Virus record (IMG/VR): IMGVR_UViG_3300010157_000269 | Coordinates: 1-22,724 of that record | Strand: one strand, 5' to 3' | Origin: a virus | DNA length: 22,724 nt | Shown: one piece after another, positions 3,408 through 22,724 of the stretch | Layout of the letters: each line of letters starts with the position of its first letter | Position numbering within the stretch: the first letter of the stretch is position 1 | Notes under the pieces: generated by a model | What the model saw: the letters and a program-made list of their open reading frames with translations, nothing else | What the model was told of the DNA's origin: nothing | Database searches by the model: none | Position numbers and translations under genes: made by a program

Positions 3408-4100
3408 TTATTTATTGGTGTGCTTAACGTGGCTTAGTGAGCCATCGGCATTAGTGTGTATCCAAACTGTACCATCTGGTATAGGCCAGCCGGCATATTC
3501 ATAATGCCAAGCCCAGCGTGTGACATATACCACCGTGGGTTCGTCACTGCGAACTATGCCCATGCCAGTATCTATCACTGCTTTAGCAAAGTATCTGTCG
3601 CTCCACAATCTCTGTCCTAGATCAACTATCCAACCGGTCATGGCAGGCAAAGCTTTGCGAGTTAGAAACCAGCTGTTAGTGTCAACCATGTTCTCGCCAT
3701 TGCTCTCCACACGATCAACGTACATCTCGCGATCATCTTGGCTGTGTATGACCCGGGTAGCTATCACACCATCAGCGCCGCTTTCGCGCAGGATGTTGAC
3801 CATGAGCTCAACGTGATTGGTCTTGAGATAATTGTCAGCATCGATGAATCCCACAGCATCATAGCCTTGGCTAAAGGCGCTGAGTGCTACTATTGCTCGC
3901 GGAGTAGCACCGGCGTCTGCATGTGCTAGAGGCAGCTTGTAGTGATCCACATCTAACTTGTCTACCATGGGATGAGGTTGACCATCACTGACCATCAAGT
4001 GGCGAACATCAGAATAGGTCTGGGCCATCACGCTGTCGTGGCATCTGCGGAGAGTTGTAGCATCTTCGTTATGATAGGGCGTGATTATTGCAACACGCAT
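3408..4100 (-). CDS. family 2 (GT-A) glycosyltransferase
   Basis: A 230-aa protein with the GT-A nucleotide-sugar fold. It opens with MRVAIITPYHNED (first Rossmann strand and loop), has HADAGATPRAIVALSAF (60-76) and a DxD metal site in FIDADN (Asp87, Asp89). The later segments NSWFLTRKALPAMTGW and LWSDRYFAKAV are typical of acceptor-side regions. The length matches a single catalytic domain without membrane anchor. The ATG at 4100 overlaps the nrdB stop as TGATG, so it is translationally coupled to nrdB. Phage GTs can glycosylate DNA, capsid proteins or host envelope; the acceptor cannot be told here. Its place between nrdB and glutaredoxin is unusual. Confidence 0.88.
   Translation of the reverse strand: MRVAIITPYHNEDATTLRRCHDSVMAQTYSDVRHLMVSDGQPHPMVDKLDVDHYKLPLAHADAGATPRAIVALSAFSQGYDAVGFIDADNYLKTNHVELMVNILRESGADGVIATRVIHSQDDREMYVDRVESNGENMVDTNSWFLTRKALPAMTGWIVDLGQRLWSDRYFAKAVIDTGMGIVRSDEPTVVYVTRWAWHYEYAGWPIPDGTVWIHTNADGSLSHVKHTNK
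3409..3416 (-). promoter_or_regulatory. T4-type late promoter, AATAAATA
   Basis: AATAAATA (7 of 8 matches) overlaps the last codons of the glycosyltransferase and lies about 20 nt before the glutaredoxin start. Unlike three other copies in the window it is not followed by YCAGC. Confidence 0.45.
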
Positions 4101-5203
4101 CAGAGGCTGAAACCTTTGAAGCTGTCAGTGCCAACATCTTGTTTGGTACCGCCGCTCACATAGCTTGAGATTTCTGTTTCCTGTGGGGCCACTTGAACTT
4201 CCCCGCCAGCTATCCACTTCTGTGTCCAAGGTAGAGGATTACTGCCTCCCTTGTACTTGCTGGGCAATCCAACGGCAGTCATGCGCTTGTTAGCGATCCA
4301 TTCCACATAATCACCTAGCAGCTGATTGTTCAGTCCGATCATGCTGCCATCCTTGAACAGATATTCTGCCCAGCGTTTCTCTTGATCCACAGCATCCTCA
4401 AACATCTTCACTGCTTCAGCTTGGCATTCTAATTCAATCTTGGCATAATCTGGATCATCCTTGGGCAGTATCTTCAGCAGCGTCTGCGTGCTGGCCAAGT
4501 GAAGGTTCTCGTCGCGTGCGATGAACTTGATGATCTTGGCATTGCCTTCCATCTTCTTGACTTCAGCAAACGCCCAGCTGCAAGCAAAGCTCACATAGAA
4601 GCGCACGCCTTCGAGGATGTTCACGCTCATCATGCACAACCAGATCAGCTGCTTGTGGCGATAGGCATCATATCCAGGTCGAGGACCAGGCTGAGCCAGC
4701 AGGTTGTTCATGGTAATTAGCTCGTCATAGTACTTGCTAATGTCGCCAGCACAGTCCACGATCTCAGCGATGTCCATGAGCTCGTCAAAGATCTTGCTAG
4801 GATTGCTATAGACGTTTCTAATGATGTGAGTGTAGCTGCGGCTGTGGATAGTCTCACTGAACGTCCAAGTGGTGATCCAGTTTTCCAACTCAGGTAAGCT
4901 GCAGATAGGACCAAATGCCACGCTGGGTGCACGACCTTGCACGCTGTCTAACAGTATCTGCCGTTTGAGATTGCTGGTGAATATATGCTGTTCGTGCGCA
5001 GTGAGGTCTTTAAAGTCTTTGGCATCCTTGAAGATATCAACTTCGGTTGGTAACCAGAAAAACGATAATTGTTTTTCTGTGAGCTTGTCTAGCGTCTTGT
5101 ATTTCATGGTATCATAGCGCTGGATGCTCACACCGCCGTTGGGATCAAGGAACGCTAGGCTCTTGGTGTGGTCTGATCGGTTAGCGACGTCAAAAACGCT
5201 CAT
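4100..5203 (-). CDS. nrdB: class Ia ribonucleotide reductase, beta (radical) subunit
   Basis: A 367-aa R2 subunit that generates the tyrosyl radical for NrdA. All di-iron ligands are visible: Asp86 (LLDSVQG), Glu117 and His120 (SETIH), Glu198 (NILEG), Glu232 and His235 (DENLH). The radical Tyr124 is four residues after His120. The C-terminal tail ends DSFKGFSL, the segment that docks into the large subunit. Length is near the E. coli form (376 aa). GAGGA lies about 8 nt before the ATG. A 60-nt gap separates it from nrdA and holds a sigma70-type promoter and a small hairpin, so nrdB has its own transcription start. The following GT is coupled by TGATG. Confidence 0.97.
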   Translation of the reverse strand: MSVFDVANRSDHTKSLAFLDPNGGVSIQRYDTMKYKTLDKLTEKQLSFFWLPTEVDIFKDAKDFKDLTAHEQHIFTSNLKRQILLDSVQGRAPSVAFGPICSLPELENWITTWTFSETIHSRSYTHIIRNVYSNPSKIFDELMDIAEIVDCAGDISKYYDELITMNNLLAQPGPRPGYDAYRHKQLIWLCMMSVNILEGVRFYVSFACSWAFAEVKKMEGNAKIIKFIARDENLHLASTQTLLKILPKDDPDYAKIELECQAEAVKMFEDAVDQEKRWAEYLFKDGSMIGLNNQLLGDYVEWIANKRMTAVGLPSKYKGGSNPLPWTQKWIAGGEVQVAPQETEISSYVSGGTKQDVGTDSFKGFSL

Positions 5204-8329: not shown

Positions 8330-9859
8330 TCAGAACTTCCAGTAGGTTACTATGTATTTCATCAAGCCAGGATTAGAACCAGTGCTAGTGTAGTTTATGA
8401 CCAAATTATTACCAACTATGGCAGCTGAAAAAGACACACTTGCATCCATGTTTAGTTCTGCATTTGTATCTAATACCGCAGCAGTAACTCCGTCCGATGT
8501 TATCTGCAGTTGTCCTGTGCGCCTATATGTATCCATGGTAATGCTATAGCTGATGCATCCAGAAAACGTGGTTATACCCTGCATGGAATAGCTGATACCT
8601 GTAGCAACATTAAGCTGGTTATCAAGCAATGTCACGCTGAGTGGTGTTGGTCGATTTACTATCAATTCACTTTGTTGTGCATTGAAGACCAAATTAGATC
8701 CGGGGTTGAGATTGATTATGCGTTTTGATCTATCAGCTTGGCTAAACACATCGCCAATGCTAGTGCATGCGTTAGTGTTGGTGCCCCAATAAATTACGGG
8801 TTCTGTCTCAGCTATGCCAACATCTGTATATGAATTATTGACGCTGGAGACACCGCGATTGGTTGTTGTTACCAATAGTGCATTGCTCGCTATATCCCTG
8901 AAGCTAGAATTAGATATCTGTACATAACTAGGTCCAGTTGCTCCGCCCAGCAATTCTATGCCTCTGTAGGTTTGATAGATCTGGCAAGAGTTCACGTCTA
9001 TTCGCGTTACTGGATCTGATACCTGCAGAGCATAAGTGGCGTTGGTTACATTAACACTGCTAAGAACTATGTCAGACGTAACTATCAGGTTACCCAGGCT
9101 CTCAACTAGTATTGCGCCAGATGATAGGTTAGGATCAGTACCTTCTTCCCAGGATCCAATAATCGTACAGCTACTGAGGCCAACACCTAAGCAACGCTGT
9201 AATAGCACCGACACGCTGTTGGAATCTGCGCTGCTGTCAATGGTCATGCTCTTCACGTTGATGCTAGTTGGCAAGACAGCACCATTGGTACCAATATTGC
9301 TGGCAGTTTGTCCCTGACTATCAGCAGTCCTAAACACAGGACCACTTGAACCTGCAGCCAGTGTTATCTGAGTCCTATGTATGCCTTCACCGACCAGAGT
9401 TGTGAACGGATAGAGTTTAATTGTGCTAGATATTAGGTAATTGCCAGCAGGGAAGAATATGTTGTTCCTGCTCATCAGCGCACTATAGGGCGCATCTGCA
9501 ACTCTGTTCCACTCGTCACTGATAGCTGTTTGTATAGCAACCGTATCGTCAGTTACACCATCACCAACTGCACCGTAATCTTTGACATCTAGATAATCGT
9601 CAAGTATGCTACCTAGGGTGCGTGTCACCGTGGAATTAGCAGATATTCCCGTAGCTCCTTGATAGGTATGGGTTATTATTTGATCGTTGGGACTCCACTG
9701 AGTGAGTATCTGGCTATTGCCAGTAAACGTATTACCGTTACCGATGAAAAGCTGCCTAGTATCAAGGCACCATCCCAGTTCAGCTTCATTTAGGTTATCA
9801 GGTAAATCAGCCCGCAGGCCTCTGCGATGTTGCAATCGGCTGATCGATACTATGGCCAT
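8330..9859 (-). CDS. tailspike with pectate-lyase-type beta helix
   Basis: A 509-aa protein. Residues about 5-45 (LQHRRGLRADLPDNLNEAEL, then GWCLDTRQLFIGNG) match the short N-terminal attachment module common on phage tail fibres and spikes. From residue 91, DVKDYGAVGDGVTDDTVAIQ is the classic opening of the pectate lyase superfamily right-handed beta helix, and FFPAGNYLISSTIKL follows as expected. The Ser/Asn/Val-rich remainder fits stacked coils; the last ~110 residues look like a separate beta-sandwich cap. It probably binds or cleaves a host surface polysaccharide. Catalytic acids cannot be assigned from sequence alone. A late promoter (9887-9894) precedes it, with GGAG about 11 nt before the ATG. 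Confidence 0.85.
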   Translation of the reverse strand: MAIVSISRLQHRRGLRADLPDNLNEAELGWCLDTRQLFIGNGNTFTGNSQILTQWSPNDQIITHTYQGATGISANSTVTRTLGSILDDYLDVKDYGAVGDGVTDDTVAIQTAISDEWNRVADAPYSALMSRNNIFFPAGNYLISSTIKLYPFTTLVGEGIHRTQITLAAGSSGPVFRTADSQGQTASNIGTNGAVLPTSINVKSMTIDSSADSNSVSVLLQRCLGVGLSSCTIIGSWEEGTDPNLSSGAILVESLGNLIVTSDIVLSSVNVTNATYALQVSDPVTRIDVNSCQIYQTYRGIELLGGATGPSYVQISNSSFRDIASNALLVTTTNRGVSSVNNSYTDVGIAETEPVIYWGTNTNACTSIGDVFSQADRSKRIINLNPGSNLVFNAQQSELIVNRPTPLSVTLLDNQLNVATGISYSMQGITTFSGCISYSITMDTYRRTGQLQITSDGVTAAVLDTNAELNMDASVSFSAAIVGNNLVINYTSTGSNPGLMKYIVTYWKF

Positions 9860-9914: not shown

Positions 9915-11411
9915 TCACAGTATCAACGGATGTCCAGCCCACTTACGTATACCGCCGCTATCCTCATTGAGCTGGCACTGGTACTTTGGTGATTCGCCTT
10001 TTGACAATTCCTCTATTACCGTGAGGGGTACGTCTTCGAAGTACATGTGAGCACACTGTCCATGCATCATGCTGTTAGGCGACGCATCATTCAATGCCCT
10101 GGCCAATTTCAACAAGCTGGTACGCATCTTTTCTATGCCGTATTTCATTATCGATCTATTGAAATAGAATATGTTGTTCAACCATATTATGTGTTGCCTG
10201 CTAGGATCTATCGCTGCGATCAGCTTGTCCGGATCATCTACGAGATTGCAAAGATGGTACCGGTGATCCAACTTTTTAAAGATCTGCCAAGCAGATTGCA
10301 TGGCATCTGCGCTACCAAATAGCTGCATCAATTCGTGCTCCTGCCTATCGCTGCACTGCTGTACCTTTTCGGCATCTCTGCGATTGCCCCAGCAGTACAC
10401 CGTATCGTCGTCACAGTTAGCATCTATGGACCGCATGAACTCATAGAAATTTCTGCCAGACCATTGCGTGTGTATCTGTTTCCATATGTTTAGAGAGTTT
10501 TCATTGAAATCAAAAGTGTTTATTTGGCAGTTTGTATCTGCACCTCTGATGTACCATTCTGCAAATGATTTGAAACCGCTAGCCGTCGTCCATATTGCAC
10601 CAGGCATCTTGCCATTCATCAATTGCCTGTTCACCAGTACATCTCCAGTGTTGAAAAGGTATATAGCAGAATTCTTATCAGAATTCACTGTCCATACCAA
10701 TTTGTGAAGGTACTTTTGTTGAGTTTCGTTTGATATGCTCAAGATATCAAATGGAGATCCGTTTCTTATGATCTGTACAGCATTAACGAGATTTTCTGGG
10801 TTATCATCTGGATAGATATAGAATTTGGTCTTACGCACTTCGATTGGTAGGTTCGGTATCTTATATCCATTGATCAATGATGCTGCGATTACATGCCAAC
10901 CAAATCTCTTATTGTTAATTGCCACGGTGCCTGCACCAGATGGACGCAACCACAACGGTGTGTAATCATCATGTACGTTTTCGCGGCTGCGTTCATATAA
11001 TGGCAGATCAGCCATACCAACATCATTATAACCAATGTCAGGTCGACCACATGCTTTCCATAAATCTAGATTGATTGCCAGAGATTGTTTATGAAAATAC
11101 GGATATTGATCAGTGTCTCGTAGCATGATATGCCCTGTTACTAACCATGTAGTTGAACAGTGAGCATGCCATGCTGCTTTCATGGTATCTGGATTATTCA
11201 AACAGGTGCCGCTATCATAGATCACTATATGTGTGTAATCTGTCTCATCTGCTGCCCAGCGTATCATGGTCATTAGATCAGGATCAACTATCGGCAACAT
11301 GATGCTGTCGAGTGCGAAATTGATGTCTTGCACCAACACTCGCATCTTGTCATTTTGACATTTTTCAACAGTGTCCCATATAGCATAGCATATCTTAATG
11401 TTTTCTTGCAT
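9915..11411 (-). CDS. paralogue B of a tandem pair, unknown function
   Basis: A 498-aa protein, clearly related over its full length to the upstream gene product. The N-terminal half (to about 130) is alpha/beta with IVIYDSGTCL and a W-LVTGHI...INLDLWKACGRP pattern reminiscent of GT-A-like folds. The C-terminal half has a highly conserved block (about 274-323, TTASGFKSFAEWYIRGAD then CQINTFDFN) and IIWLNNIFYF (about 405), spaced like strands 1, 2 and 4 of a degenerate Rossmann methyltransferase. That reading is an inference. I chose the ATG at 11411, which overlaps the upstream stop as TAATG, over a longer TTG start; it aligns with the paralogue's start. The end is GHPLIL. Confidence 0.75.
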   Translation of the reverse strand: MQENIKICYAIWDTVEKCQNDKMRVLVQDINFALDSIMLPIVDPDLMTMIRWAADETDYTHIVIYDSGTCLNNPDTMKAAWHAHCSTTWLVTGHIMLRDTDQYPYFHKQSLAINLDLWKACGRPDIGYNDVGMADLPLYERSRENVHDDYTPLWLRPSGAGTVAINNKRFGWHVIAASLINGYKIPNLPIEVRKTKFYIYPDDNPENLVNAVQIIRNGSPFDILSISNETQQKYLHKLVWTVNSDKNSAIYLFNTGDVLVNRQLMNGKMPGAIWTTASGFKSFAEWYIRGADTNCQINTFDFNENSLNIWKQIHTQWSGRNFYEFMRSIDANCDDDTVYCWGNRRDAEKVQQCSDRQEHELMQLFGSADAMQSAWQIFKKLDHRYHLCNLVDDPDKLIAAIDPSRQHIIWLNNIFYFNRSIMKYGIEKMRTSLLKLARALNDASPNSMMHGQCAHMYFEDVPLTVIEELSKGESPKYQCQLNEDSGGIRKWAGHPLIL

Positions 11412-12931
11412 TACCTGTTTGTCCAAAAACTGTTTTCGTTTTGTAGCGTTGGATGTCCCACATTAGGTTTGATGTCATCATGTTCAACCAACTGATGATA
11501 CTGGAATGTTGGGATATTCTTGATAGTGATATCTTGTATTATAAGGCTAGGCGTGCTTTCAAAATGACCACAAGGTCCTTGTCCGTGCATAACACTGTTA
11601 GGTGATATTTCATTAATAGCAGCTGCCAATTCCAATAATCTATCGTGTAATAATGCACTGCCGTAATATCGTATAGATCGGCTATAATAGAATATATTGT
11701 TAAGCCAAATCGCATGTATCTTGTCTTTAGACATCAGTTCTGCAAATTTAGTTGGATTCTCAACTAAATTTACCCGATGGTATCTGTGTTCTAAACATTG
11801 GAATGCACGCCACGCAGCTTTCATAGCTGTTTTGCCGCCTAGGAACTCGCATATTTCATTTTCCTGACGATCAGAGGCTTCTCGTGCAGATTCATTATCC
11901 CAAGCATTTCCCCATGTAAACGACTCATCAGATTCAAATGGATAAGTTGACAGTAGATGATCGTATAGGTCAACACCATCCCAGGTATAGTGTATGTGTT
12001 TCCATAACCTAAGGCTATTTGAATTATAATCAAACGTGTTTATCTGGCATGTGCTGTCTGCACCTCTAGACCACCATTCTCCAAAAGATTTGAAACCACT
12101 GGCTGTGTTCCACAACGCATCAAAATGCCTATCTTTTTCAAAATTTTTGTCTACTATGGTGTGCCCTGTATTGAAAACAAACACAGCTGCATTATCAGAT
12201 CCTTGCCTCACTGCATCTATATCTTTGGCATAACTTAAACTATCGCGGCAGCTTGCTAAGATGCTAGCATCTAACTGATATCCAGCACGTATCTTCTCAA
12301 CCTGTTGGATCAATGCAACCGGATCACCTCGCGTAATATGTACCATATATTCTGTTACAGAGGCATCAAAATTGACAACAGATCTGTAATGCTCCAAGCT
12401 TTTTGATATGATGTTCCATCCAAAGCTTCTGGCCTGCACTTCAATCCTGCCCCCTTTTGCTTGATCCACTGTAATAACATTATTAAGAGCATCTCGCTCA
12501 ACGGTAGCTGGACAGAGCAACACTGTGTCTGTTGCAGCTAAACCAAATTCTGGCATACCAAGATTACGCCACAGATCGAGATTTAGAACAAAGGCATCTG
12601 GAGCTAGGCTTGGATATTGGCATTCATCTGAATATTTTATGTATCCAGCTATCAACCAATCTCCCTCGCACAGTTTGTGCAATCCAACGCGCAATGCTTG
12701 CGGATCTACTAAATGAGTGCCAGTTGAGAATACAGCTAGGTGTGTAAATTCTGCATATTTGTTGGCCCAAGATAGCAATTCATTGAGATCTTTCCCAACT
12801 ATTGGATTTATTATGCTGTCAAAGGCAAAGTTGGCATCATGCAGCAGAGCACGCATCTTATGGTCGTGGCAATCATCTGCAGTATCCAGCAGTGCATAAC
12901 ACACACCTGTCTTATAGTTACTATTGGTCAT
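11411..12931 (-). CDS. paralogue A of a tandem pair, unknown function
   Basis: A 506-aa protein with the same architecture as its downstream neighbour. Its N-terminus (YALLDTADDCHDHKMRALLH) aligns with YAIWDTVEKCQNDKMRVLVQ there. The mid block at residues 274-323 shares 32 of 50 positions with the paralogue. HAIWLNNIFYYSRSI (about 403) and the near-C-terminal GHP are shared too. A longer frame to 13000 would overlap the oxygenase gene by 80 nt; I chose the ATG at 12931 (11-nt overlap), which gives co-linear starts in the pair. Stop and next start overlap as TAATG. No membrane segment or signal is seen. Sugar transfer or methyl transfer onto a virion or host-surface target is a guess. Confidence 0.75.
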   Translation of the reverse strand: MTNSNYKTGVCYALLDTADDCHDHKMRALLHDANFAFDSIINPIVGKDLNELLSWANKYAEFTHLAVFSTGTHLVDPQALRVGLHKLCEGDWLIAGYIKYSDECQYPSLAPDAFVLNLDLWRNLGMPEFGLAATDTVLLCPATVERDALNNVITVDQAKGGRIEVQARSFGWNIISKSLEHYRSVVNFDASVTEYMVHITRGDPVALIQQVEKIRAGYQLDASILASCRDSLSYAKDIDAVRQGSDNAAVFVFNTGHTIVDKNFEKDRHFDALWNTASGFKSFGEWWSRGADSTCQINTFDYNSNSLRLWKHIHYTWDGVDLYDHLLSTYPFESDESFTWGNAWDNESAREASDRQENEICEFLGGKTAMKAAWRAFQCLEHRYHRVNLVENPTKFAELMSKDKIHAIWLNNIFYYSRSIRYYGSALLHDRLLELAAAINEISPNSVMHGQGPCGHFESTPSLIIQDITIKNIPTFQYHQLVEHDDIKPNVGHPTLQNENSFWTNR

Positions 12932-13625
12932 TTTGAACAATGTACCTGTAGCTGTCCTTGATCCAAGCATCCCATGTACCAGATCGAACCCCATGGACAA
13001 TTATATGGAAGCGATCTTCGTCGCTTTCGTTGTAAACCATATGTTTATTACCAACTGCTAGCATGTTGACCGTGCCAGGTGAAAACGGAACGGTACCCCA
13101 ATTCTCCATGACAAAGCTAACTCCGGGAGGATTATTGATAGCAAGGTTAACAGCACTGAGCTGTTTCCATTCCACATCCTCATGCGGTAAGATGTAACCG
13201 CCTGGTTCAAGCAACATGAATCTTATGCGATCGTATTGTGCGTATCCAAACTGCTCCCTGAAAAATCTAGTAGATACTGGACAGAACTTGCTTATATCTG
13301 TCCAATCATAGGGTGCAGATTCTCTGTCAGCATATCCGTAACGATCATGGTTTTCTGTATGTACACTGCTTAGACCATGCAAGCAGAGGCTGCGCCAGCC
13401 TCGATGGTTGCCACCTTCTCGATGAGAAACAAAGCCTGTTCGCAGAGCCTTGACTTCTTTAAGCATAGCTTCGTGTGGCATTTCAGCGGGCACGCGGATT
13501 GGAAGAAATCCAAGATTATCTCGTATTTGTTTGGTGCTAGGATTTTCCATCCTTGGAAAGTTAGGTACATAATCCTTCCAAGTGTTAGCAAACTCTCTTA
13601 CTTCTTGGAGATTTTCTTGATCCAT
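12921..13625 (-). CDS. aspartyl/asparaginyl beta-hydroxylase-like 2OG oxygenase
   Basis: A protein of about 234 aa with a cupin-type oxygenase core (numbering from the upstream ATG at 13631). The iron site is His150-Glu-Asp152 (LEPGGYILPHEDVEW) with distal His197 (GNKHMVYN). Arg207 in DEDRFHIIVHG fits the 2-oxoglutarate anchor. SPGTVNMLAVG is the usual strand before the distal His. This resembles the Asp/Asn hydroxylase branch found in many T4-like phages. I prefer the ATG at 13625 because GAGG lies 7 nt before it; the ATG at 13631 is too close to that site. It is followed by the paralogue pair with an 11-nt overlap, so its product may act with theirs. The substrate is unknown. Confidence 0.87.
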   Translation of the reverse strand: MDQENLQEVREFANTWKDYVPNFPRMENPSTKQIRDNLGFLPIRVPAEMPHEAMLKEVKALRTGFVSHREGGNHRGWRSLCLHGLSSVHTENHDRYGYADRESAPYDWTDISKFCPVSTRFFREQFGYAQYDRIRFMLLEPGGYILPHEDVEWKQLSAVNLAINNPPGVSFVMENWGTVPFSPGTVNMLAVGNKHMVYNESDEDRFHIIVHGVRSGTWDAWIKDSYRYIVQNDQ

Positions 13626-13657
13626 GCTCATGCCTCACTGTCATACTTATGATGCAG

Positions 13658-14341
13658 TCAGAACACAAATCTTTCATAATAATCGGCAACCTTTTGGCTC
13701 CAGAGCACGGTGCTTTCCTCAAACTCGTGGCCTGTCCACACGAACTTTTGGAACTCGCATTCTCGGCTGACCATGAACACCACAGTGGTATCAATGTTAG
13801 TGCCATGTATGTTATTGTGTGCCATGGCGTAGGCTGCTAGCTGTAGTCGATAGTCTTCTACCCACTCACGTTTCTTGGGCTTGATAGTGGTCTTGAAATC
13901 CATGATAGCAGGACGGCCCATGTACATGCCAACCAAGTCAGTGGTGCCAGCCCAGAGGTTTTCATAGTAGAGATGGGATTCAACTCCCCAGACTTCATCT
14001 ACGTCAATGAGACCTTCTGAGATTACGGTGTCTGCCATGCGCTGTGCCATCAATCTACCATAGTTGTTGCCGCCTGGGCGCTGTTCACCCAACACATATG
14101 CTTCCAGATGCGCATGCATGGTAGTGCCAAGTCCTGCGGATTCTTCTGTTATCTGCTTGGCTTTGTCCTCACCAATGCGCTTCTTCCACGCTATGAGGTG
14201 TGTCATGTCCTTGGTCTTGCTGAGGATCGTTGTAACGCTTGGTATCTTGTTTCCCACATCATCCACATACACACGGCCTTGTCCACCGCCATCTTGTCTG
14301 TCCAGTTTCTTGTAGGTGTATATTGGATTGTACTTGATCAT
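13658..14341 (-). CDS. PD-(D/E)XK exonuclease (Cas4/RecB-like)
   Basis: A 227-aa nuclease of the Cas4/RecB-type PD-(D/E)XK group. Visible motifs are His76 in GTTMHAHLEAY, Glu121 in WGVESHLYY, Asp135 in AGTTDLVGMY, Asp148-Phe-Lys150 in IMDFKTT, and the RecB-motif helix YRLQLAAYAMA (164-174). There is no four-Cys Fe-S cluster, so it is not a canonical Cas4. Similar proteins are annotated as exonucleases in T4-like cyanophages and also resemble mitochondrial MGME1. It probably trims ssDNA or DNA ends in recombination or replication. GAGG lies 5 nt upstream of the ATG. Confidence 0.88.
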   Translation of the reverse strand: MIKYNPIYTYKKLDRQDGGGQGRVYVDDVGNKIPSVTTILSKTKDMTHLIAWKKRIGEDKAKQITEESAGLGTTMHAHLEAYVLGEQRPGGNNYGRLMAQRMADTVISEGLIDVDEVWGVESHLYYENLWAGTTDLVGMYMGRPAIMDFKTTIKPKKREWVEDYRLQLAAYAMAHNNIHGTNIDTTVVFMVSRECEFQKFVWTGHEFEESTVLWSQKVADYYERFVF

Positions 14342-14379: not shown

Positions 14380-14622
14380 CTATGTTTGTCTAGCCAGTTC
14401 AGGATGGTGCTTGGCTATCATTAGATCTGCGAGTAACTCAGCCCGCGCTGCTGAGTTGGCTTGGTCGCCCTGTTTCTTTATGTTCTTGAGACCTAGCTTC
14501 ACATCTGGTTTCTCTGGCAGCGCATCAATCTCTTCGATGCTCATGCTGTGTGCTCTAGCAACCAATGCTTGAATGTGAGGTTTCTTGCTCTTTAGCAAGA
14601 AAGCTTCTGGACCATGGAGCAT
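14380..14622 (-). CDS. small helical protein of unknown function
   Basis: About 80 aa from the ATG at 14622, or 89 aa from an in-frame ATG at 14649 that would overlap the upstream gene by 22 nt. The later start has a weak GTGAG just upstream; the earlier has none. The sequence is Lys/Ala-rich and predicted helical (HSMSIEEIDALPEKPDVKLG, then NIKKQGDQANSAARAELLADL). I see no recognised motif. It follows the HTH-ended repeat protein directly and is probably co-translated with it. Confidence 0.6.
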   Translation of the reverse strand: MLHGPEAFLLKSKKPHIQALVARAHSMSIEEIDALPEKPDVKLGLKNIKKQGDQANSAARAELLADLMIAKHHPELARQT

Positions 14623-14627
14623 ACTTC

Positions 14628-17600
14628 TCACGACTTGTGCATGCCCCATTTAGAAGACGGGAACATTCCTGACGTATGCTTGCTGCTAGGACCTTTACTA
14701 CGTAGATTGCCTATGGTACCCGGGCGATATATACCAGTTGTAGCCGATAGCTTAGGCCTAACTTTGCCTTTTTTGTTGTCTTCCCATTCAGCTCGCAATT
14801 GGGCATAATCTGGTTGTTTAACCAGAGTAGCTAACACAGTCCTGCCAACTATAACTTTGCCTAACTGGTCACTGATCTCAGCTAGACTGAAACCTTGTTT
14901 ATAAAGCTCGCGCATCTTTTGTATCATCTCAGGCGTAACTTTACCAGCTAATGTATCGCTCCTTGGCAAGGTTCTACGCTGCTGGGTATCTCGGGCAACA
15001 GTTCCCGGTCCTAGTATCTCATCTACCCATCTTTCAACTGTTGTCCTATCTATAGCGAATTTCTTTGCTATGTTCCTGACATTTTCCCCAGCCTGCCATA
15101 ATCTTGCCATTTCAGCTTTGTCGTCAGGAGTCGCGGCTTGCGCAATGTTCTCGATTCTTTTGGTCCTGTCTTTATGATATCTATCTAGAATATAGCTAAC
15201 CTTAGGCACAGTGAGATCTGTGAGCTGTCCTATTTCCTTCATTGTGTAACCAAGGTCAAATGCCTTTCGTACATCGTCTATTGTATCAGGGCTAAATGGA
15301 ACCTTGCCTTCATTAATGAATTCCCAGGCTCTCATGGCATCACCACTTGACGTTCCACTGGAAGGTCTGATTGGTGTTTGGATTGGTCTGGCGCTGTATT
15401 GTATAGCCAAGGTTGGCAAAATAGTTGATGATGGTATCCATCTGGTCAGCATAGGGACGGTTTGATCTGGATCTTTAGTAGGGACGTTTTGCCAAACCTT
15501 GTAGTAATCGTAACTAGCTGGGTATGGTATTACCTGCATGGTACCAGAACCATAACCGATCGTAGCTGTTGCTGTAGCAGCGTTGCTATTCAATATATTA
15601 GGGGCACTGATATTAACCGTGGGCACGCTGGTGTACCCTTGGCCCTGGTCAGTGATATCTATGTAGGCTATGCTGAATCCTCTGACGGCAGTGAGGCTAG
15701 GCTGCGTGGGTTCTACTGTCTCGCCTGCACCAGCTATCACCTGCAACTGCGGCTGGCTAGTATAGTATTGTCCACCATTAGTAACGACTACCTGTTGTAT
15801 GCCAGTGCTGTATAAAGACACATTTCCTGTTGCAGCGCCAGCTATGGACACTGACGGTATGGAAGTGTAATTATTACCTTGCGCAGTTAGGCTCAGAGAC
15901 TGAACATAGGTTGGACGCAACACGGCTATTGCAGTTGCATTGCTGCCGTCTCCTGTAATGGTAACCATCGGAGGTTCGATGTATCCCTGGCCCTCAGCCG
16001 TGACTACTATGCCCACGATGGAACCACCTAATATATTTGCTGTAGCCTGGGCGCCCTGCCCTTGATCACTTAGAAAATTAACATATGCAATGGTGTAACC
16101 TGATCCACCTTGGGTGACATCTACAAATTCTACACTAGTCTGTGCTAAAGTTGCTACTGCTGTGGCCCCACTGCCAGATGTTAGTACAACGCTAGGAGGT
16201 GTGACATAACCCTGACCAGATGCTGTGACCACTATGCTAGCAACACTGGGACCGTTTAGCAATGCATATGCACTGGCACCGACACCGGTTGGATCATTTG
16301 ATGTTATCAATACTGTAGGTGCTGCTGTATAACCATATCCATCTGACGACAATGTTATGTTATCAATACCTGCTGTTAGGTTAAAGCTGGCTGCTTGACC
16401 ACTACCGCCATATACCGCATTATTGGTCATTATCGGCAATTCGCTGTATAGTCCACTGGTCATTAGAGTGAAATCCACGATAGAACCTGCAGGATCTACC
16501 ACGTTGATACGTATAGAAGCCGATGCCGATCCAGATCCCCCCGACACTATGAGAATATCACCCACTGTATACTGGCTACCGGCACCACCTGTAGCAATAG
16601 CTGCTGTGGTAATACGCATATAGATAGTATCTATTGATGCGCCCTGTCCTGCTGCGGTGATGGTCACAGCTGGCGCAGATGTATATGTAGGACCGCCACT
16701 GTTTAACAAATTGATAGCACCAACAGATGTGGGCGTTAGATAGGGTATAGCAGCTGCATTTTCACCACTTGATATCTTAATGGTAGGAGCAGACGAATAT
16801 CCTGTGCCCGGATTTGTAATCGCAATACCGGTCATGTTACCAGCAGAGAGAATTGAATATGCAACAGCACCGCTCCCACCACCGTCAAGTATGGATATTA
16901 CTGGCGGAGCTGTGTACTGCGTACCTTGGTTTGCCACTGCTATTCGAGCTATTCCCATGACTAGATTAAGAGTACAACCGGTACCCCCACCAGTTGATAC
17001 CGTTGGCGCAGAAATTAGGCTAGGTAATGCAGTATATAAACCACCAGATGAAATATTGACCGAATGTACATCTCCGCTAGGACCATTCGATGCGACTATA
17101 ACAGATAATGGATTTCCAGATCCACCTGTCACCGTGATCACGTCACCAGTGCGATAATTGGTACCACTTTGATTAATTGTTACAGACACAGTAGTGAAAC
17201 TCACTATGCCAGCTGCAGCACCACTGCCTTGTCCAAAAATCTCTATGCTAGGGGGATAATGGTATCCATCCCCGGGACTGTCTACAGTTATATAACCAAT
17301 GTTACCATATGGTGCTAGATATGCTATAGCAGTTGCTTGAACGGTGGCATTGCCACCTGTGATTGTCACGTTTGGATTATATGTGTATCCGGTGCCCGCA
17401 TTGGTTAGCGTGATGCTGCTTATACCATAGGTAAGAGATATTGAAATTGGACGATTGGCTAGCGCATCTTTCTTAGTGTATGCCAAACGTATGGCATCAA
17501 TGCTCCTATATATCACGTAGTACAGCGTGTTTACCATGAATGGACTAGGTAATTCACCTGTGCTGTTCACAAAAACAGCATCACCGGTGTTGTAGGTATG

Positions 17601-17837
17601 ACCTGGTACTTGCAGTGTTCCGGTACTGGGATCAATGCTGAGAACCACACCATTTATGCCAGCATTTTGCGTCATGGTAGTACCACGATCGATCAATGCA
17701 TTATAGTATCCAGCTTTTACTGCATCTAAGATGGCACTGCTGATCGCAGTTCCTTCATCGAACACGATGCGTTCTCTTATTGCATTTTGTCGAGCATCTT
17801 GTGCTGTTATGAATATACCGCTGCTGGTACTAGCCAT
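14628..17837 (-). CDS. virion repeat protein with C-terminal triple helix-turn-helix
   Basis: A 1069-aa protein. The N-terminus (ITAQDARQNAIRERIVFDEG, about 10-29) is of a kind seen on cyanophage-like structural proteins. Residues about 139-765 hold some 16 repeats of a G-x-GY-T-x-x-P-x-V/I pattern in 30-45-residue beta units. After a linker, residues about 852-1006 contain three helix-turn-helix units: YTMKEIGQLTDLTVPKVSYI, NVRNIAKKFAIDRTTVERWV and SLAEISDQLGKVIVGRTVLA. The Lys/Arg-rich tail (PSSKHTSGMFPSSKWGMHKS) fits nucleic acid contact. A repeat-built virion protein ending in DNA-binding domains is odd; it may contact packaged DNA or enter the host. It overlaps the 112-aa gene by 8 nt. 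Confidence 0.85.
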   Translation of the reverse strand: MASTSSGIFITAQDARQNAIRERIVFDEGTAISSAILDAVKAGYYNALIDRGTTMTQNAGINGVVLSIDPSTGTLQVPGHTYNTGDAVFVNSTGELPSPFMVNTLYYVIYRSIDAIRLAYTKKDALANRPISISLTYGISSITLTNAGTGYTYNPNVTITGGNATVQATAIAYLAPYGNIGYITVDSPGDGYHYPPSIEIFGQGSGAAAGIVSFTTVSVTINQSGTNYRTGDVITVTGGSGNPLSVIVASNGPSGDVHSVNISSGGLYTALPSLISAPTVSTGGGTGCTLNLVMGIARIAVANQGTQYTAPPVISILDGGGSGAVAYSILSAGNMTGIAITNPGTGYSSAPTIKISSGENAAAIPYLTPTSVGAINLLNSGGPTYTSAPAVTITAAGQGASIDTIYMRITTAAIATGGAGSQYTVGDILIVSGGSGSASASIRINVVDPAGSIVDFTLMTSGLYSELPIMTNNAVYGGSGQAASFNLTAGIDNITLSSDGYGYTAAPTVLITSNDPTGVGASAYALLNGPSVASIVVTASGQGYVTPPSVVLTSGSGATAVATLAQTSVEFVDVTQGGSGYTIAYVNFLSDQGQGAQATANILGGSIVGIVVTAEGQGYIEPPMVTITGDGSNATAIAVLRPTYVQSLSLTAQGNNYTSIPSVSIAGAATGNVSLYSTGIQQVVVTNGGQYYTSQPQLQVIAGAGETVEPTQPSLTAVRGFSIAYIDITDQGQGYTSVPTVNISAPNILNSNAATATATIGYGSGTMQVIPYPASYDYYKVWQNVPTKDPDQTVPMLTRWIPSSTILPTLAIQYSARPIQTPIRPSSGTSSGDAMRAWEFINEGKVPFSPDTIDDVRKAFDLGYTMKEIGQLTDLTVPKVSYILDRYHKDRTKRIENIAQAATPDDKAEMARLWQAGENVRNIAKKFAIDRTTVERWVDEILGPGTVARDTQQRRTLPRSDTLAGKVTPEMIQKMRELYKQGFSLAEISDQLGKVIVGRTVLATLVKQPDYAQLRAEWEDNKKGKVRPKLSATTGIYRPGTIGNLRSKGPSSKHTSGMFPSSKWGMHKS
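14820..15284 (-). other. three tandem helix-turn-helix units in the repeat protein
   Basis: Residues about 852-1006 of the 1069-aa protein. Each unit has the spacing of a resolvase/sigma-4-type HTH (helix, turn with G/N/D, recognition helix). Units are about 55 residues apart with Arg/Lys-rich linkers. Confidence 0.7.
15543..17423 (-). repeat. array of about 16 beta-type protein repeats
   Basis: The coding repeat is diverged at DNA level; the protein unit keeps GxGY(T/S)xxP(x)(V/I) followed by a Gly/Ala-rich strand. Clear copies are GTGYTYNP, GDGYHYPP, GTGYSSAP, GYGYTAAP, GQGYVTPP, GQGYIEPP and GQGYTSVP. A few lose the Pro (GTNYRTGD, GSQYTVGD). Confidence 0.8.
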
Positions 17838-18168
17838 TGTTTACGCTCTTCCTAGCTGCTTTAGTGGCCATCTTTTCCACCTTATCTGCACTTTTTTGTT
17901 CTTGGTCGTCTGATGCACCTTCTGGCGGTATATCCTGTTGCAATATCACCTTGTCTTTGACAACCCGTTCGATGCCTTGCTTGTCTTTGAGCACATCCAT
18001 TACCCATCTGCGATTGGCATCGAATCCTTGGTTGTGCAAAACAGACAGCAGTTCTTCCATGGGAATGCTAGCTGCATCCTTGCTCTGATATACTGCTACC
18101 AGATCCATGATAGAGTTTTCTGCCTCATCTGGACTGCTAGGTAAGCTAGTGATCTCGCTATATCGCAT
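17830..18168 (-). CDS. small conserved phage protein, unknown function
   Basis: A 112-aa protein. It has an acidic N-terminus (SSPDEAENSIMDLVAVY), a central helical part (IPMEELLSVLHNQGFDANRR, then WVMDVLKD) and a Lys-rich C-terminus (KVEKMATKAARK). The central part looks like a small helical domain, but I do not recognise a family. It begins 15 nt after the 1175-aa gene and overlaps the repeat gene by 8 nt, so the three are likely one translation unit. A virion or assembly role is inferred from position only. Confidence 0.65.
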   Translation of the reverse strand: MRYSEITSLPSSPDEAENSIMDLVAVYQSKDAASIPMEELLSVLHNQGFDANRRWVMDVLKDKQGIERVVKDKVILQQDIPPEGASDDQEQKSADKVEKMATKAARKSVNNG

Positions 18169-18183
18169 GGCGTTATTGCCCGA

Positions 18184-21100
18184 TCACTTTGCTGTCACGC
18201 GATCGAAGTGCTCTGGATTGATCAGCTTAGTCTTTATGCTGCTATTAAGCTGAGCCCAATAATCGCGTGCTTTCTGATCTTCAAAGAACTTGGTCTTGCG
18301 CTTGCCCTGCGATTCATACATAACACCCCACGGCTTGGTAGCTTTGGCAGTGGCAAAGCGTGCTGCCTTGCGCTCTTCCTTGATCGCTGCCAGCAGCTTG
18401 GCTTTGCTGTCTGATTCAAGCACGCGGATCTGTTGATTTAGATCCGCTGCCATTGCTGTGACTTCTGCGATCTTCTTTTCAAGAAGGTCACCTTCAAGTC
18501 CCTGTCCGCTCTTGAGAAGATCCTTGATCTTGCCTTCAGCGAGACGCTGTGTAAATTCTGCTCGGTGTTCTGCTAGATCAGCTTCGTACTTGCGCTTGCC
18601 GCGCAGTGCTTTTTCTATCAGCCCACCCAATCGCTTGATGCTCTCATCAGTGCCTTCGATGCTAGCTCCAATCTCATGAGCTTTCTTTACTACTTTCTTT
18701 GGAAGATCATGTGCTGGCTTGTCTGGATCCATGCCAGCTTCTTTCTTGGCCTGCCACATGCCTATGGCATACGGACTCTTGCTCTTGGCTTCTGCCACCT
18801 TCTTGGCCTTGTCCTTGAGAGCCTTCTTCATAGGCTCTTTCTTGTTGCCATCACCGTCAACGTCGAGGAAGTCTGGCTTGGCCTTCTTGGCTTCTTTCAC
18901 CGGTGTCTGACTCAGATAAGAATCCTTGAGGGCATCTATCTTGTTTACATCATTTGCTTCGATATAGGTGTCTAGGTTCTGCAATTCTTTTGCTGCAGTC
19001 TGGTCACCTTTAGTCGCAGCTGCAGCTAGGGCTTGACCAAGAGGAGTGTCCTTGCTCGCCCCACCGCTGCTCATCCAATTAGCAAGCAGAGCAGCACCTA
19101 ATCCTAATCCTGCTAGTATTTTGACAAGTGCCCCTTCGCGTAAACTGCTCCCGTTGCCTTCAAACGTGGCTGCTTTACTGACAGCCTGTGATTTCTGCTG
19201 AGGAGATAATGGTTTTGCAACATTATCTTTTGGATTAACAGCTGTTTGCTTCTGCAGTCGTTCCCAACGTGCTACTTCTGCATCAAGCTGCTGAGGAGAC
19301 ATTGCACGCCATGCTGCATCTTGTTCTGGATCATCAAGAGCTGTGCTAGGTATGACCTTTTGTATGGTATCCTGCGCTGCTTTGCTAAAGTCTAGATTAG
19401 CCACAGCCTTCTTGATCCTAGCAATCTTCTGGTCCTGCTGTGCGTCTTCGTTGATCTTACCAAACTTGTCTTTCTGCTTGGCACGGATAGCAAAATCGAT
19501 CTGCTTTACAGTCTTCTGTTCAGCAGCGCTGCGCTCTTCTTTATCCATCAGCTTCTTCTTTTTGGCCTTGAGCTCAGCTATGGTATAACCATCCCACTTG
19601 CCCTTGTCCTTCTCGGCAGTGTGCATCTCAGTGCCCCACTTCTCGGCTACTTTCTTGCGACCTTCTGCTACAACTGCACCAGTGCCCGCAGCTGGTTTCT
19701 TGGCGCGGCCCAGAGGTTCTTCTCCACCAGCTGCTGCTGGCATCGTGCCTGTACCATCGCCCATCTCCGGAACTTCGGGTGCTGCTGCACCAGATACGGT
19801 ACCAACATTTTCAATGTCAGTGCCACCGGCACCTGGTATGCCACCGCCCTGCAGTGCCAGCACTGCATCATCGCTTTGATCCTTGGCAGTCTGCACGCTC
19901 TGCAACAGATCTTCTAGCTGCTTCTTCATCACTTCGTTGTATGCATCCGCAGCTTCTGGTCCAAACTGCGTCTTCATTGTATCCACAAGAGGCATGAGAT
20001 CATCAACACCCATGCGTGCTACTTTTTCAGCCATGCTCTGCAGATCATCACTGATGCTCTTGGCAGCTATCAGTGTCTGTGCCTGTTGCAGATCCTGTTC
20101 TGGAGTTTCGGCAGCTTCGCGTAATATACGTGCTACCAATCCGTAACGGCTTTCTTCTAAGCCAACTTCCTCGCCGGCATGTTTTTCAAACTGCTTGTAA
20201 TCCAAGAAGTGCTTGCTGCTGCTAATGCCTTCGCTGGCTTTGGTCAGCTTCATTGCTACCCAACCTTCGAGGTGGTCGCCTGGCTGTATCATCTGGAACA
20301 GCTTGATGCTGTCTTCCACGATGCTGAGCAGGTTCATGCGTGCTATGCTGCCGCTGGTCTCACCTAATTCTTCTTCGCCGCCAATGTCTTCGTCATCCAT
20401 GCTGTAATCAGCCATTGGAGCATCTTCACCTAGCACACCTGGTTCAGCATGCTGATAGTAGTCCATGTAGTGATAGATCTTATCGAGGTTCATAGCAGCT
20501 TTGGTCAAGCAAGCGGCTATCCAAGGTTCAATCTCATCTTCCTTGCGGATCATCTTCAGCATGTCCATGCCGTACTTGGCATTGCGATAGAGCTCGCTGC
20601 GTGCCATGCTGGCCTGATAATCATGATGCTGCATGTGTTCTTCGTTGAGTGCCTTGGCTAGCCTGCTGGTCATCTGTTCGTTCACCTTGTATGTTTTTCC
20701 GTCAACTTCAAACTCATCCTTGTGTGCTGCTTTAGCTGCTGCCAGTGCACCAGTGAATTCGTTGCCTTCGTCTGTGATTTCTTCACTAGCAACCTTCTTG
20801 ATCTTACCACCCCGCTGTAAGAAATCTTGTATGGCATCAGAGGCTGTAGCCCTAAGTTCTTCTTTGCTATTTCCCTCACCTGGAGTCCTGTCTATCCGGT
20901 TGAGCTTACGGTCTCTGTTCATCTTAGAATCTGCCCAGCTGCGTGCTGCTCTAGCCATAGCTCTCGGAGATGGCATTTCATCTAATGTTTCTCCACCTGC
21001 AACGCCATACTTCTTCATCAGTGCTGCTAGTTCTGGATCCATGCTTTGTGTTGCTGCATCATTGTCAGCCATATGCGACACAGTCTCTTCTTTAACCGAT

Positions 21101-21711
21101 GTGCTCTTTTCAGTCTTCTTGGCGTGATGCTTGTCATACATCTTGTGACCCATGCGCAGTGCCATGAGATTTTCCTTGGCTTGCCTGCGATCATCTTGGT
21201 CGTCATTGGTGTCACCAATGCGTGCTTCGTAGTAAGCAACAAGGTCTTTCATGCTCTTTGGAGAGAATGGCTGTCCGAGACGCACTAGGTCCTCGCCAAC
21301 ACGGCCAAAGCTGTTTAGCATGGCCAGCAGCTTGTCATCCTTGGTGTTTGCCTTTTCAGCAAAGTCCATCATCCAGCGACCAACCTTGGTAGCATGGCTT
21401 TCATTGAGGACAGTTTCATCACTCTCGCGCAGATGCCGAGGACGGCGCTTTGGCGCTATCTCAGTGAGATACAGGCGTACTGCTTCCATGATCAACATGT
21501 GCTTGGTGTACACAGGATTGCTGTGCCAGCTGTTGAAAGCGCTCTCACTCACTATGCTGTTCTTGACTATCTCACTGCTGTCATGCAATGCTGCTAGCTC
21601 ATCAATGGTTGATTCATCTAGTGTGAGCTCAGTGTCATACACATGCTTGAGTGTGTGAGTGATTTGGTTGAGCCTGTGCTCTGCGCTTGCTTTAACGTCA
21701 TCGACGAACAT
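18184..21711 (-). CDS. very large virion-type protein with membrane segment and internal duplication
   Basis: A 1175-aa, highly charged, mostly helical protein. Two related ~50-residue units occur at about 365-420 and 453-506: MARSELYRNAKYGMDMLKMI...WIAACLTKAA...YHYMDY and IARMNLLSIVEDSIKLFQMI...WVAMKLTKAS...KHFLDY. Similar units appear in structural proteins of T4-like cyanophages. A Gly/Ala/Pro-rich linker (about 610-665) follows. A hydrophobic stretch (LVKILAGLGLGAALLANWM, about 863-881) could cross a membrane. DFLDVDGDGNKKEPM (about 947-962) is an EF-hand-like Asp loop. The C-terminus has a basic domain (VMYESQGKRKTKFFEDQKA). GAGAGG lies 5 nt before the ATG and a late promoter about 45 nt upstream. 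Injection or head-to-membrane function is an inference. Confidence 0.75.
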   Translation of the reverse strand: MFVDDVKASAEHRLNQITHTLKHVYDTELTLDESTIDELAALHDSSEIVKNSIVSESAFNSWHSNPVYTKHMLIMEAVRLYLTEIAPKRRPRHLRESDETVLNESHATKVGRWMMDFAEKANTKDDKLLAMLNSFGRVGEDLVRLGQPFSPKSMKDLVAYYEARIGDTNDDQDDRRQAKENLMALRMGHKMYDKHHAKKTEKSTSVKEETVSHMADNDAATQSMDPELAALMKKYGVAGGETLDEMPSPRAMARAARSWADSKMNRDRKLNRIDRTPGEGNSKEELRATASDAIQDFLQRGGKIKKVASEEITDEGNEFTGALAAAKAAHKDEFEVDGKTYKVNEQMTSRLAKALNEEHMQHHDYQASMARSELYRNAKYGMDMLKMIRKEDEIEPWIAACLTKAAMNLDKIYHYMDYYQHAEPGVLGEDAPMADYSMDDEDIGGEEELGETSGSIARMNLLSIVEDSIKLFQMIQPGDHLEGWVAMKLTKASEGISSSKHFLDYKQFEKHAGEEVGLEESRYGLVARILREAAETPEQDLQQAQTLIAAKSISDDLQSMAEKVARMGVDDLMPLVDTMKTQFGPEAADAYNEVMKKQLEDLLQSVQTAKDQSDDAVLALQGGGIPGAGGTDIENVGTVSGAAAPEVPEMGDGTGTMPAAAGGEEPLGRAKKPAAGTGAVVAEGRKKVAEKWGTEMHTAEKDKGKWDGYTIAELKAKKKKLMDKEERSAAEQKTVKQIDFAIRAKQKDKFGKINEDAQQDQKIARIKKAVANLDFSKAAQDTIQKVIPSTALDDPEQDAAWRAMSPQQLDAEVARWERLQKQTAVNPKDNVAKPLSPQQKSQAVSKAATFEGNGSSLREGALVKILAGLGLGAALLANWMSSGGASKDTPLGQALAAAATKGDQTAAKELQNLDTYIEANDVNKIDALKDSYLSQTPVKEAKKAKPDFLDVDGDGNKKEPMKKALKDKAKKVAEAKSKSPYAIGMWQAKKEAGMDPDKPAHDLPKKVVKKAHEIGASIEGTDESIKRLGGLIEKALRGKRKYEADLAEHRAEFTQRLAEGKIKDLLKSGQGLEGDLLEKKIAEVTAMAADLNQQIRVLESDSKAKLLAAIKEERKAARFATAKATKPWGVMYESQGKRKTKFFEDQKARDYWAQLNSSIKTKLINPEHFDRVTAK

Positions 21712-21794: not shown

Positions 21795-22112
21795 TCAGAG
21801 GCTGAAACTGGTACCGCAGCCACAGGTGCTGGCCGCTTCGGGTATGTCTATGACGAAATAAGCGCCTGCAAGATCAGTCTTGTAATCAACCGTGGCATTG
21901 TCAAGTAGGTCATAGCTAATCTTATCTATTACCACAGGACCTGTTGCTGTATCTATGATCATGTCGTCCACGTCAACCGAGTCAGTCCAGCCAAAATGCT
22001 TTTCAAATCCATTGCAACCGCCTGCACGTATCTCTATGCGAGGGGCGCACGGATTGTCTATCCTAAGCTGACCAAATCTCTCTGCAGCCTTATCTGTTAT
22101 TTTTACTGGCAT
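21795..22112 (-). CDS. A-type iron-sulfur carrier protein (IscA/ErpA/HesB family)
   Basis: A 105-aa A-type carrier with the three conserved cysteines: Cys33 in RAGGCNGFEKHF, and Cys97 and Cys99 in STCGCGTSFSL at the C-terminus. It delivers Fe-S clusters to apo-proteins. I chose the ATG at 22112 (MPVKITDKAAERFGQL), the family's usual start; the longer frame to 22160 only reads through the upstream gene. It overlaps that gene by 23 nt. IscA/HesB-like genes are known in some T4-like marine phages. With ribonucleotide reductase and two 2OG oxygenases it adds to an iron-dependent set. Which member (IscA, ErpA, SufA) cannot be told. Confidence 0.9.
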   Translation of the reverse strand: MPVKITDKAAERFGQLRIDNPCAPRIEIRAGGCNGFEKHFGWTDSVDVDDMIIDTATGPVVIDKISYDLLDNATVDYKTDLAGAYFVIDIPEAASTCGCGTSFSL

Positions 22113-22724
22113 CTTCGAGGATCGCCTTGATGTCGCGCTTGATGCTTCCGGCAGTGTCAAGCGCCTTCTGGAACTTGGTAGCGTAGATGTCTTCCTTGAT
22201 CATGTCACCGCGCTGTTCGGCGCGCTTCTGTGCCTGCTTGCTGCTCATGGCGTCTATCTTGCAGCTGGTATAGTGATCATCAAGTTCAAACAACCTACGC
22301 ACAGTTGGATTGTTCACGTACTTGTGATTGTTCAACATCTTTATAGCAGCTAATGCAACTTCGTAAAGCGTGATATCGTTAGCTATGATCGTGCCTGTAC
22401 CGCTGTGCTCAATGCTGTAGTATTGCTTGCCAGCAGCACGCTGCTCATTTAGATGTATTTCTATCTTGTACTCGCCTACGCTGACGCTGCTGGTATCTCG
22501 GCGTGTGCGTACTGCTAATTTCTCATCAGCACTGCTTTCCATGATAACTTGATTGGTGACTTTGTTTAGATTCTCTAACACCTTAGCCATGGCATGTATC
22601 TCAGCTTGACTAGGGCTGCCAGGTCCACCTTCTGTGCTATAGTTTTCCGTGACCATTGCCGATCCACTGGTAGGTGACGGTGTTTCGCCATTCATTATGG
22701 CCATCATTCTAGCCATGGCCTCGC
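22090..22724 (-). CDS. phage protein of unknown function, probably 5'-truncated by the window
   Basis: The frame is open to the window edge; the first in-frame ATG (22716) would give 208 aa but its GAGG is only 2 nt upstream, so the true start is probably outside. After a low-complexity Ser/Gly/Pro stretch comes EIHAMAKVLENLNKVTNQVI, a beta-rich centre (VGEYKIEIHLNE, YYSIEHSGTGTIIANDITLY) and a basic helical C-terminus (KQAQKRAEQRGDMIKEDIYA). This layout resembles uncharacterised virion-associated proteins of T4-like cyanophages. No catalytic motif is visible. Confidence 0.65.
   Translation of the reverse strand, partial: EAMARMMAIMNGETPSPTSGSAMVTENYSTEGGPGSPSQAEIHAMAKVLENLNKVTNQVIMESSADEKLAVRTRRDTSSVSVGEYKIEIHLNEQRAAGKQYYSIEHSGTGTIIANDITLYEVALAAIKMLNNHKYVNNPTVRRLFELDDHYTSCKIDAMSSKQAQKRAEQRGDMIKEDIYATKFQKALDTAGSIKRDIKAILEDASKNNR

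Follow-up and report, generated by a model that had tools for sequence, protein, structure and literature searches.

The window, that is, the whole stretch of DNA analysed here, is an entire viral contig of 22,724 bases from a T4-like jumbo-phage group. In protein searches, its nearest isolated phages are Sinorhizobium phage Phosso, Agrobacterium phage Atu_ph07 and Pseudomonas phage PA5oct, and its genes include those for ribonucleotide reductase, an exonuclease, a tail-spike-like protein and virion proteins. On the minus strand, a 1069-aa ORF runs without interruption from 14628 to 17837 and matches both PHROG virion proteins (phrog_701, 2.2e-51) and a helix-turn-helix (HTH) profile (HTH_23, 5.9e-9). 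An earlier note read this ORF as a single virion protein in which about 16 beta repeats are joined in one frame to three HTH units and a basic tail. The region, with L002 and L003 as two syntenic relatives for comparison, has the following features.

17830–18168, minus strand: upstream virion-protein-like gene, 112 aa (phrog_15050 virion structural, 5.6e-4)
15461–17837, minus strand: repeat virion protein gene, N-terminal domain and about 15–16 beta repeats; frame broken after 15460
15459–15460, minus strand: position at which one base is missing in comparison with relatives (L002/L003 alignment; tblastn frame switch from -1 to -3)
15340–15459, minus strand: old-frame coding sequence for the conserved C-terminal tail of the repeat protein (39 codons, then TGA at 15342–15340); unread in the fused ORF
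14628–15335, minus strand: HTH protein gene, 235 aa, pI 9.8, with its own ATG at 15335; a separate ORF in relatives
15309–15335, minus strand: capsid-targeting-like tag MRAWEFINE, predicted prohead-protease cleavage after E9 (E-F-I-x-E ending of T4 IPII/IPIII)
15177–15290, minus strand: HTH 1, residues 16–53 (AlphaFold2; resolvase HTH alignment, rmsd 1.4–1.5)
15012–15128, minus strand: HTH 2, residues 70–108 (HTH_23, 2.6e-11; AlphaFold2; small-terminase HTH alignment)
14820–14933, minus strand: HTH 3, residues 135–172 (Terminase_5 HTH, 4.2e-7; AlphaFold2; GcrA/Tc3/SANT alignment)
14631–14759, minus strand: basic tail, predicted disordered (pLDDT <50), with conserved RPGTIGNLRSKGPxSKH (window–L002 alignment)
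14380–14631, minus strand: conserved 83-aa gene directly after the HTH gene (tblastn and gap survey)
13658–14341, minus strand: exonuclease gene (phrog_298, 2.5e-51), which served as the synteny anchor

Owing to the single missing base, the repeat gene runs on in the reading frame that encodes the HTH protein. In L002 and L003 the repeat proteins end in a conserved tail (...FQWNVKW), and the window encodes the same tail in another frame, which closes at a TGA just upstream of the HTH gene's start codon. Over the tail stretch the window and L003 differ at 17 bases. Read in the old frame, these differences change 14 codons synonymously and 2 non-synonymously; in the fused frame, the same stretch has 1 synonymous and 15 non-synonymous changes. 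Judged by these codon changes, the old frame is still under purifying selection. Because its coding signal is undecayed, the alignments show a frame broken either by a very recent one-base deletion or by a sequencing or assembly error. Among the window genes compared with relatives, the repeat gene is the sole one with a split frame.

L002 carries a separate 229-aa HTH gene after its repeat gene, and L003 has none. The HTH gene is present on eight contigs from four distinct lineages (L002; L006–L009, four contigs, one of 216 kb; L051, of 518 kb; L053 and L054), and in all of these the repeat and HTH ORFs are separate. One continuous repeat–HTH ORF was found in no relative examined, the genes being separate or the HTH gene absent. 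The comparison of sequences thus shows two genes, not one fused protein. The earlier note had itself named a separate HTH gene in relatives as an outcome that would tell against a fusion, and on that ground the fusion fails.

The repeat gene retains the character first ascribed to it. A regular-expression count gives about 15–16 G-x-x-Y...P/GD repeats, the repeat region matches the virion structural families PHROG 701 and 19630, and the window protein is 60–63% identical to those of L002, L003 and L009. Structure prediction yields a mean pLDDT of 34.6, and therefore no fold is claimed. PA5oct (Arenbergviridae) shares the operon. The order there is homologue of the 1175-aa upstream protein, gene at the position of the 112-aa gene, gp245, exonuclease, ribonucleotide reductase, and gp247, gp246 and gp245 are annotated as structural by ESI-MS/MS. 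The 112-aa gene of the window, which overlaps the start of the repeat gene, thus has its counterpart at the same place in an MS-detected operon. The gp245 protein, only 111 aa long, joins the N-terminus of the repeat protein directly to its C-terminal tail (37.5% identity over 56 aa, 7e-11, and 31% over 55 aa, 2.5e-4, to the L009 copy). Compared with the gp245 form, the repeat protein is, by alignment, a small virion protein into which the beta repeats have been inserted; the tail missing from the fused ORF is, on the same alignment, the conserved core of that protein. MS-detected gp245 shares with the window gene a syntenic operon and both termini, but it lacks the beta repeats, and no HTH gene separates it from the exonuclease gene.

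Other genes of the window may be recorded here. Residues 282–309 of the 1175-aa upstream virion protein (18184–21711) weakly match the RNA-polymerase-binding domain of SutA (3.6e-5, below the curated cut-off), and this segment is apparently absent from the syntenic proteins of L002 (933 aa) and L009 (878 aa). At 21795–22160 lies a phage-encoded Fe-S cluster biosynthesis gene of the IscA/HesB type (7.2e-12); in the same operon, L003 has a gene that is NifU-like by eye. The tail-spike-like protein (8330–9859) combines an Mtd_N domain (4.4e-8) with a pectate-lyase-type beta helix (1.9e-24). Between its gene and the gene at 12921–13631, two adjacent paralogous genes (503 and 529 aa) occupy 9915–13000.

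The HTH units and the basic tail described in the earlier note are borne out in the separate HTH protein. HTH_23 and HTH_28 both score above the Pfam cut-off, and AlphaFold2 predicts three tri-helical units with pLDDT mostly 75–89; the last 45 residues carry a charge of +8.9. VIA-align of the units gives Z values of 5–7, in the range of common folds, and Foldseek with the model returned no match below E 0.001 (best E 0.12), so that the fold assignments are to be taken as ordinary matches of a predicted model. The HTH protein is thus a predicted DNA-binding protein. Some of the HTH profiles match HNH families, yet a nuclease domain is absent, and a homing endonuclease was rejected as a candidate. 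Searched as a single sequence, the HTH part had no relatives among viral contigs or isolated phages; a two-row profile recovered relatives in viral contigs. The L051 HTH protein has no match among named phages.

The slot that holds the HTH gene is itself variable. It lies between the repeat gene and the conserved 83-aa gene and was surveyed by tblastn and a gap survey. In L003, L049, L055, L039 and L040 the slot is empty, and in relatives without the HTH gene the 83-aa gene comes straight after the repeat gene. A three-HTH gene occupies the slot in the window and L002, and a four-HTH gene in L006–L009. L053 and L054 have an HTH gene together with a radical-SAM-like gene (assigned by eye), while L033–L036 have an unrelated 125-aa gene, whose product in L033 (4124–4501) starts MK-x-x-[DE]-[IL] without the full tag described below. 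In L051 a divergent, four-HTH gene is followed by a second one, also tagged, that encodes only 60 aa and a single HTH (3924–4106), suggesting, as far as gene content can tell, that HTH units are gained and lost. In T-even phages, internal-protein genes sit at variable positions and differ in content. By analogy, the slot may be a variable cargo position.

The part of the HTH protein that varies least is its N-terminus. The first ten residues are conserved as MRA[WHSQ]EF[IT]xE[AGT], and every HTH protein of the slot, including the short second one of L051, begins MRAxEF[IT]xE[AGT]. This tag is 60–90% identical between the proteins, compared with 20–52% for the rest of the sequence, except for the L051a/L054 pair at 85%. 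In the window, MRAWEFINE is followed by G; in relatives, the leader ends in ITE or IVE followed by A. Read from NC_000866, the leaders of the T4 internal proteins IPII and IPIII end in E-F-I-x-E-A, and that of IPI is related. For T4 IPIII, the first 10 residues suffice for head targeting, residues 4 and 7 being important for targeting and residues 8 and 10 for processing, and the prohead protease gp21 cleaves after L/I-x-E (PMC9026906). Leaders of this type are about 10–20 residues long and end in [I/L]-x-E, as does that of the HTH protein. The window protein keeps the equivalents of IPIII residues 7 (Phe), 8 and 10, whereas Tyr4 corresponds to Ala.

The likeness to the T4 internal proteins extends beyond the short M-basic-...-E-F-I-x-E-A leader ending in a gp21 site. 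In both cases the proteins are small and basic, gene content is variable, and several unrelated cargoes follow one leader. The tag differs from the T4 capsid-targeting sequence in being one residue shorter and in lacking a conserved aromatic residue at position 4; the mature part here is an HTH array, and the gene lies in a virion operon after the repeat gene. T4 Alt is likewise packaged in the head, processed and injected (PMC9026906), and an ADP-ribosyltransferase is also found among the tagged cargoes of the wider set, but the window protein is not an enzyme and is without an ART domain. Other head-packaged proteins delivered with the DNA, such as P1 Dar and the inner-body ejection proteins of the phiKZ type, are targeted by sequences that differ or are much longer (PMC9024508, PMC5694885) and are set apart on the basis of these descriptions.

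The window is a fragment without head genes, so the machinery that would read such a leader was sought in two relatives, G001 (216 kb) and G006 (518 kb). Both encode a gp21-like protease (PF03420; 1.0e-26 and 9.1e-26, respectively). In G001, a scaffold-like gene with eleven [IL]xE[AGS] sites lies between the protease gene and the gene for the gp23 capsid protein, and G006 has the same protease, scaffold and capsid set. Near the major capsid gene of G001 there is also a tagged gene (L016:13560–14297, G001:C1:108560–109297) that begins MRWREIITEGG; its product has nucleotidyltransferase-like features by eye and is without a match in a PHROG search.

The distribution of the tag was at first discouraging. 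In the relatives' contigs, a strict motif (MR..EF followed by an aliphatic residue) picked out the HTH gene and otherwise a single unrelated match. At face value this counted against a leader. An excess then emerged from less strict, position-aware tests. In G001, nine genes start MR..[EDQ][FIL], compared with 0.7 expected from independent columns. The DNA pattern for M[RK]..[EQ][FIL][IL]xE[AGS], scanned over nine records, matches the HTH gene in five records, the gene beside the G001 major capsid gene, and T4 ipII and ipIII, and its reversed control has zero matches in the same nine records. Phosso and Atu_ph07, both well-assembled relatives, have no match to this strict pattern. Looser searches of further relatives gave 19 tagged matches versus 3 in reversed controls, with products that are mostly dissimilar by eye.

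A DNA scan of IMG/VR for MRAxEFIxEA finds at least 120 stretches, whereas a scrambled tag of the same composition finds 4; because the pattern is strict, the counts are lower bounds and the set is biased to close matches. Among the matches listed, 116 of 121 tagged ORFs are at least 40 aa long, and they fall into 24 clusters without detectable similarity past residue 10. The cargoes among the matches listed include an ART-PolyVal ADP-ribosyltransferase (1.6e-28), a GH19 enzyme (9.5e-16) and, as weak matches, one GNAT-like and one SLT-like protein. A pI above 8.5 is found for 15 of the 24 cluster representatives (again among the matches listed), versus 17% of G001 proteins. Since T4 packages basic internal proteins together with the ADP-ribosyltransferase Alt (PMC9026906), the tagged set resembles the internal proteins of T4-like phages. 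The largest cluster (L205:1071–1472; 59 of the 116 ORFs among the matches listed), whose members are about 134 aa long, finds no counterpart in Pfam, in PHROGs or among named phages and is, by its leader, a common candidate internal protein.

The locus holds a frame-broken virion repeat gene and an independent HTH gene, and collectively these data make it probable that the HTH product is an internal head protein of the T4 type that is injected into the host. Packaging and cleavage are predicted from the ten N-terminal residues. MRAWEFINE would bind the prohead scaffold during assembly, and the gp21-like protease would cut the HTH protein after E9. The remaining basic, three-HTH protein of 226 residues would stay among the packaged DNA in the head and be ejected with it at infection. 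In the cell, the HTH protein would bind DNA, where it might most likely regulate early transcription or shield the incoming genome; both are candidate roles, suggested less strongly than delivery itself. Of the two functions offered in the earlier note, the regulator injected with the DNA has therefore gained ground, with the separate HTH protein, starting with a T4-type capsid-targeting sequence and a prohead-protease site, as its bearer.

Other readings have to be weighed. The HTH protein could be a separate late regulator or packaging factor that acts in the infected cell, with a tag that has some other role, for example, binding to a structure other than the head. This reading would suit HTH types that resemble those of resolvases, sigma region 4 and small terminases, as well as a tag that departs from the T4 one at residue 4. 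However, the tag is common to many unrelated proteins beyond the HTH ones and ends in a protease site, and the matching protease is encoded in genomes of the group (G001 and G006). We regard this explanation as unlikely, though less so than the other alternatives.

A real and functional fusion in this phage, that is, a newborn structural protein with DNA-binding modules, is very improbable. The ORF is indeed open from end to end across the junction, and to this extent the joining in one frame described in the earlier note holds; but the window is one base short, all relatives with the HTH gene keep the genes separate, the old-frame signal persists, and a fused product would have the tag in its interior. 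Moreover, the fused ORF loses the conserved C-terminal core of the virion protein, which makes a functional fusion unlikely. The proposal of a structural protein that anchors the genome through its HTH units falls with it, as relatives encode the HTH part separately and the fused product is without that core.

Even slighter is the probability that the likeness of the tags is due to chance or lies at the DNA level, as a mobile promoter or start cassette. The motif is short, and AGA and GAA codons dominate in the tag among the matches listed. Against this stand the excess over the scrambled pattern and, among the matches listed, fixed residues encoded by every one of the three Ile and four Ala codons, as well as the lack of conservation upstream of the tagged genes. 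Such synonymous variation and unshared upstream sequence indicate selection on the peptide, not on the DNA, and the cassette was dropped for these reasons. Finally, a programmed ribosomal frameshift yielding a minor fused product would fit the position of the HTH gene in the +1 frame right after the repeat gene, but its probability is negligible: the slot lacks an HTH gene in five relatives, and the HTH frame of both L002 and L054 closes four codons ahead of the ATG or GTG start codon, which puts it out of reach of any shift farther upstream and makes a conserved read-through or frameshift product impossible; the explanation, largely refuted by these closed frames, was dropped.

The T4 capsid-targeting leader is already known. 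Our searches of the open-access literature turned up neither the use of this leader form across jumbo phages nor tandem-HTH proteins serving as its cargo. Ordinary breakage accounts for the fusion first reported; the reading that takes its place could be of consequence. We lean, with rather less assurance than for the locus itself, toward the wider view that MRAxEFIxE[AGS] serves a broad, uncultivated group of T4-like jumbo phages as a readable address label for the capsid, marking dozens of unrelated injected proteins, among them a multi-HTH DNA-binding protein that would act on host or phage DNA at entry. A searchable tag of ten residues would turn the injected proteins of jumbo phages into a list that proteomics can test. 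If this view is true, the set of proteins that these phages inject could be listed from sequence alone.
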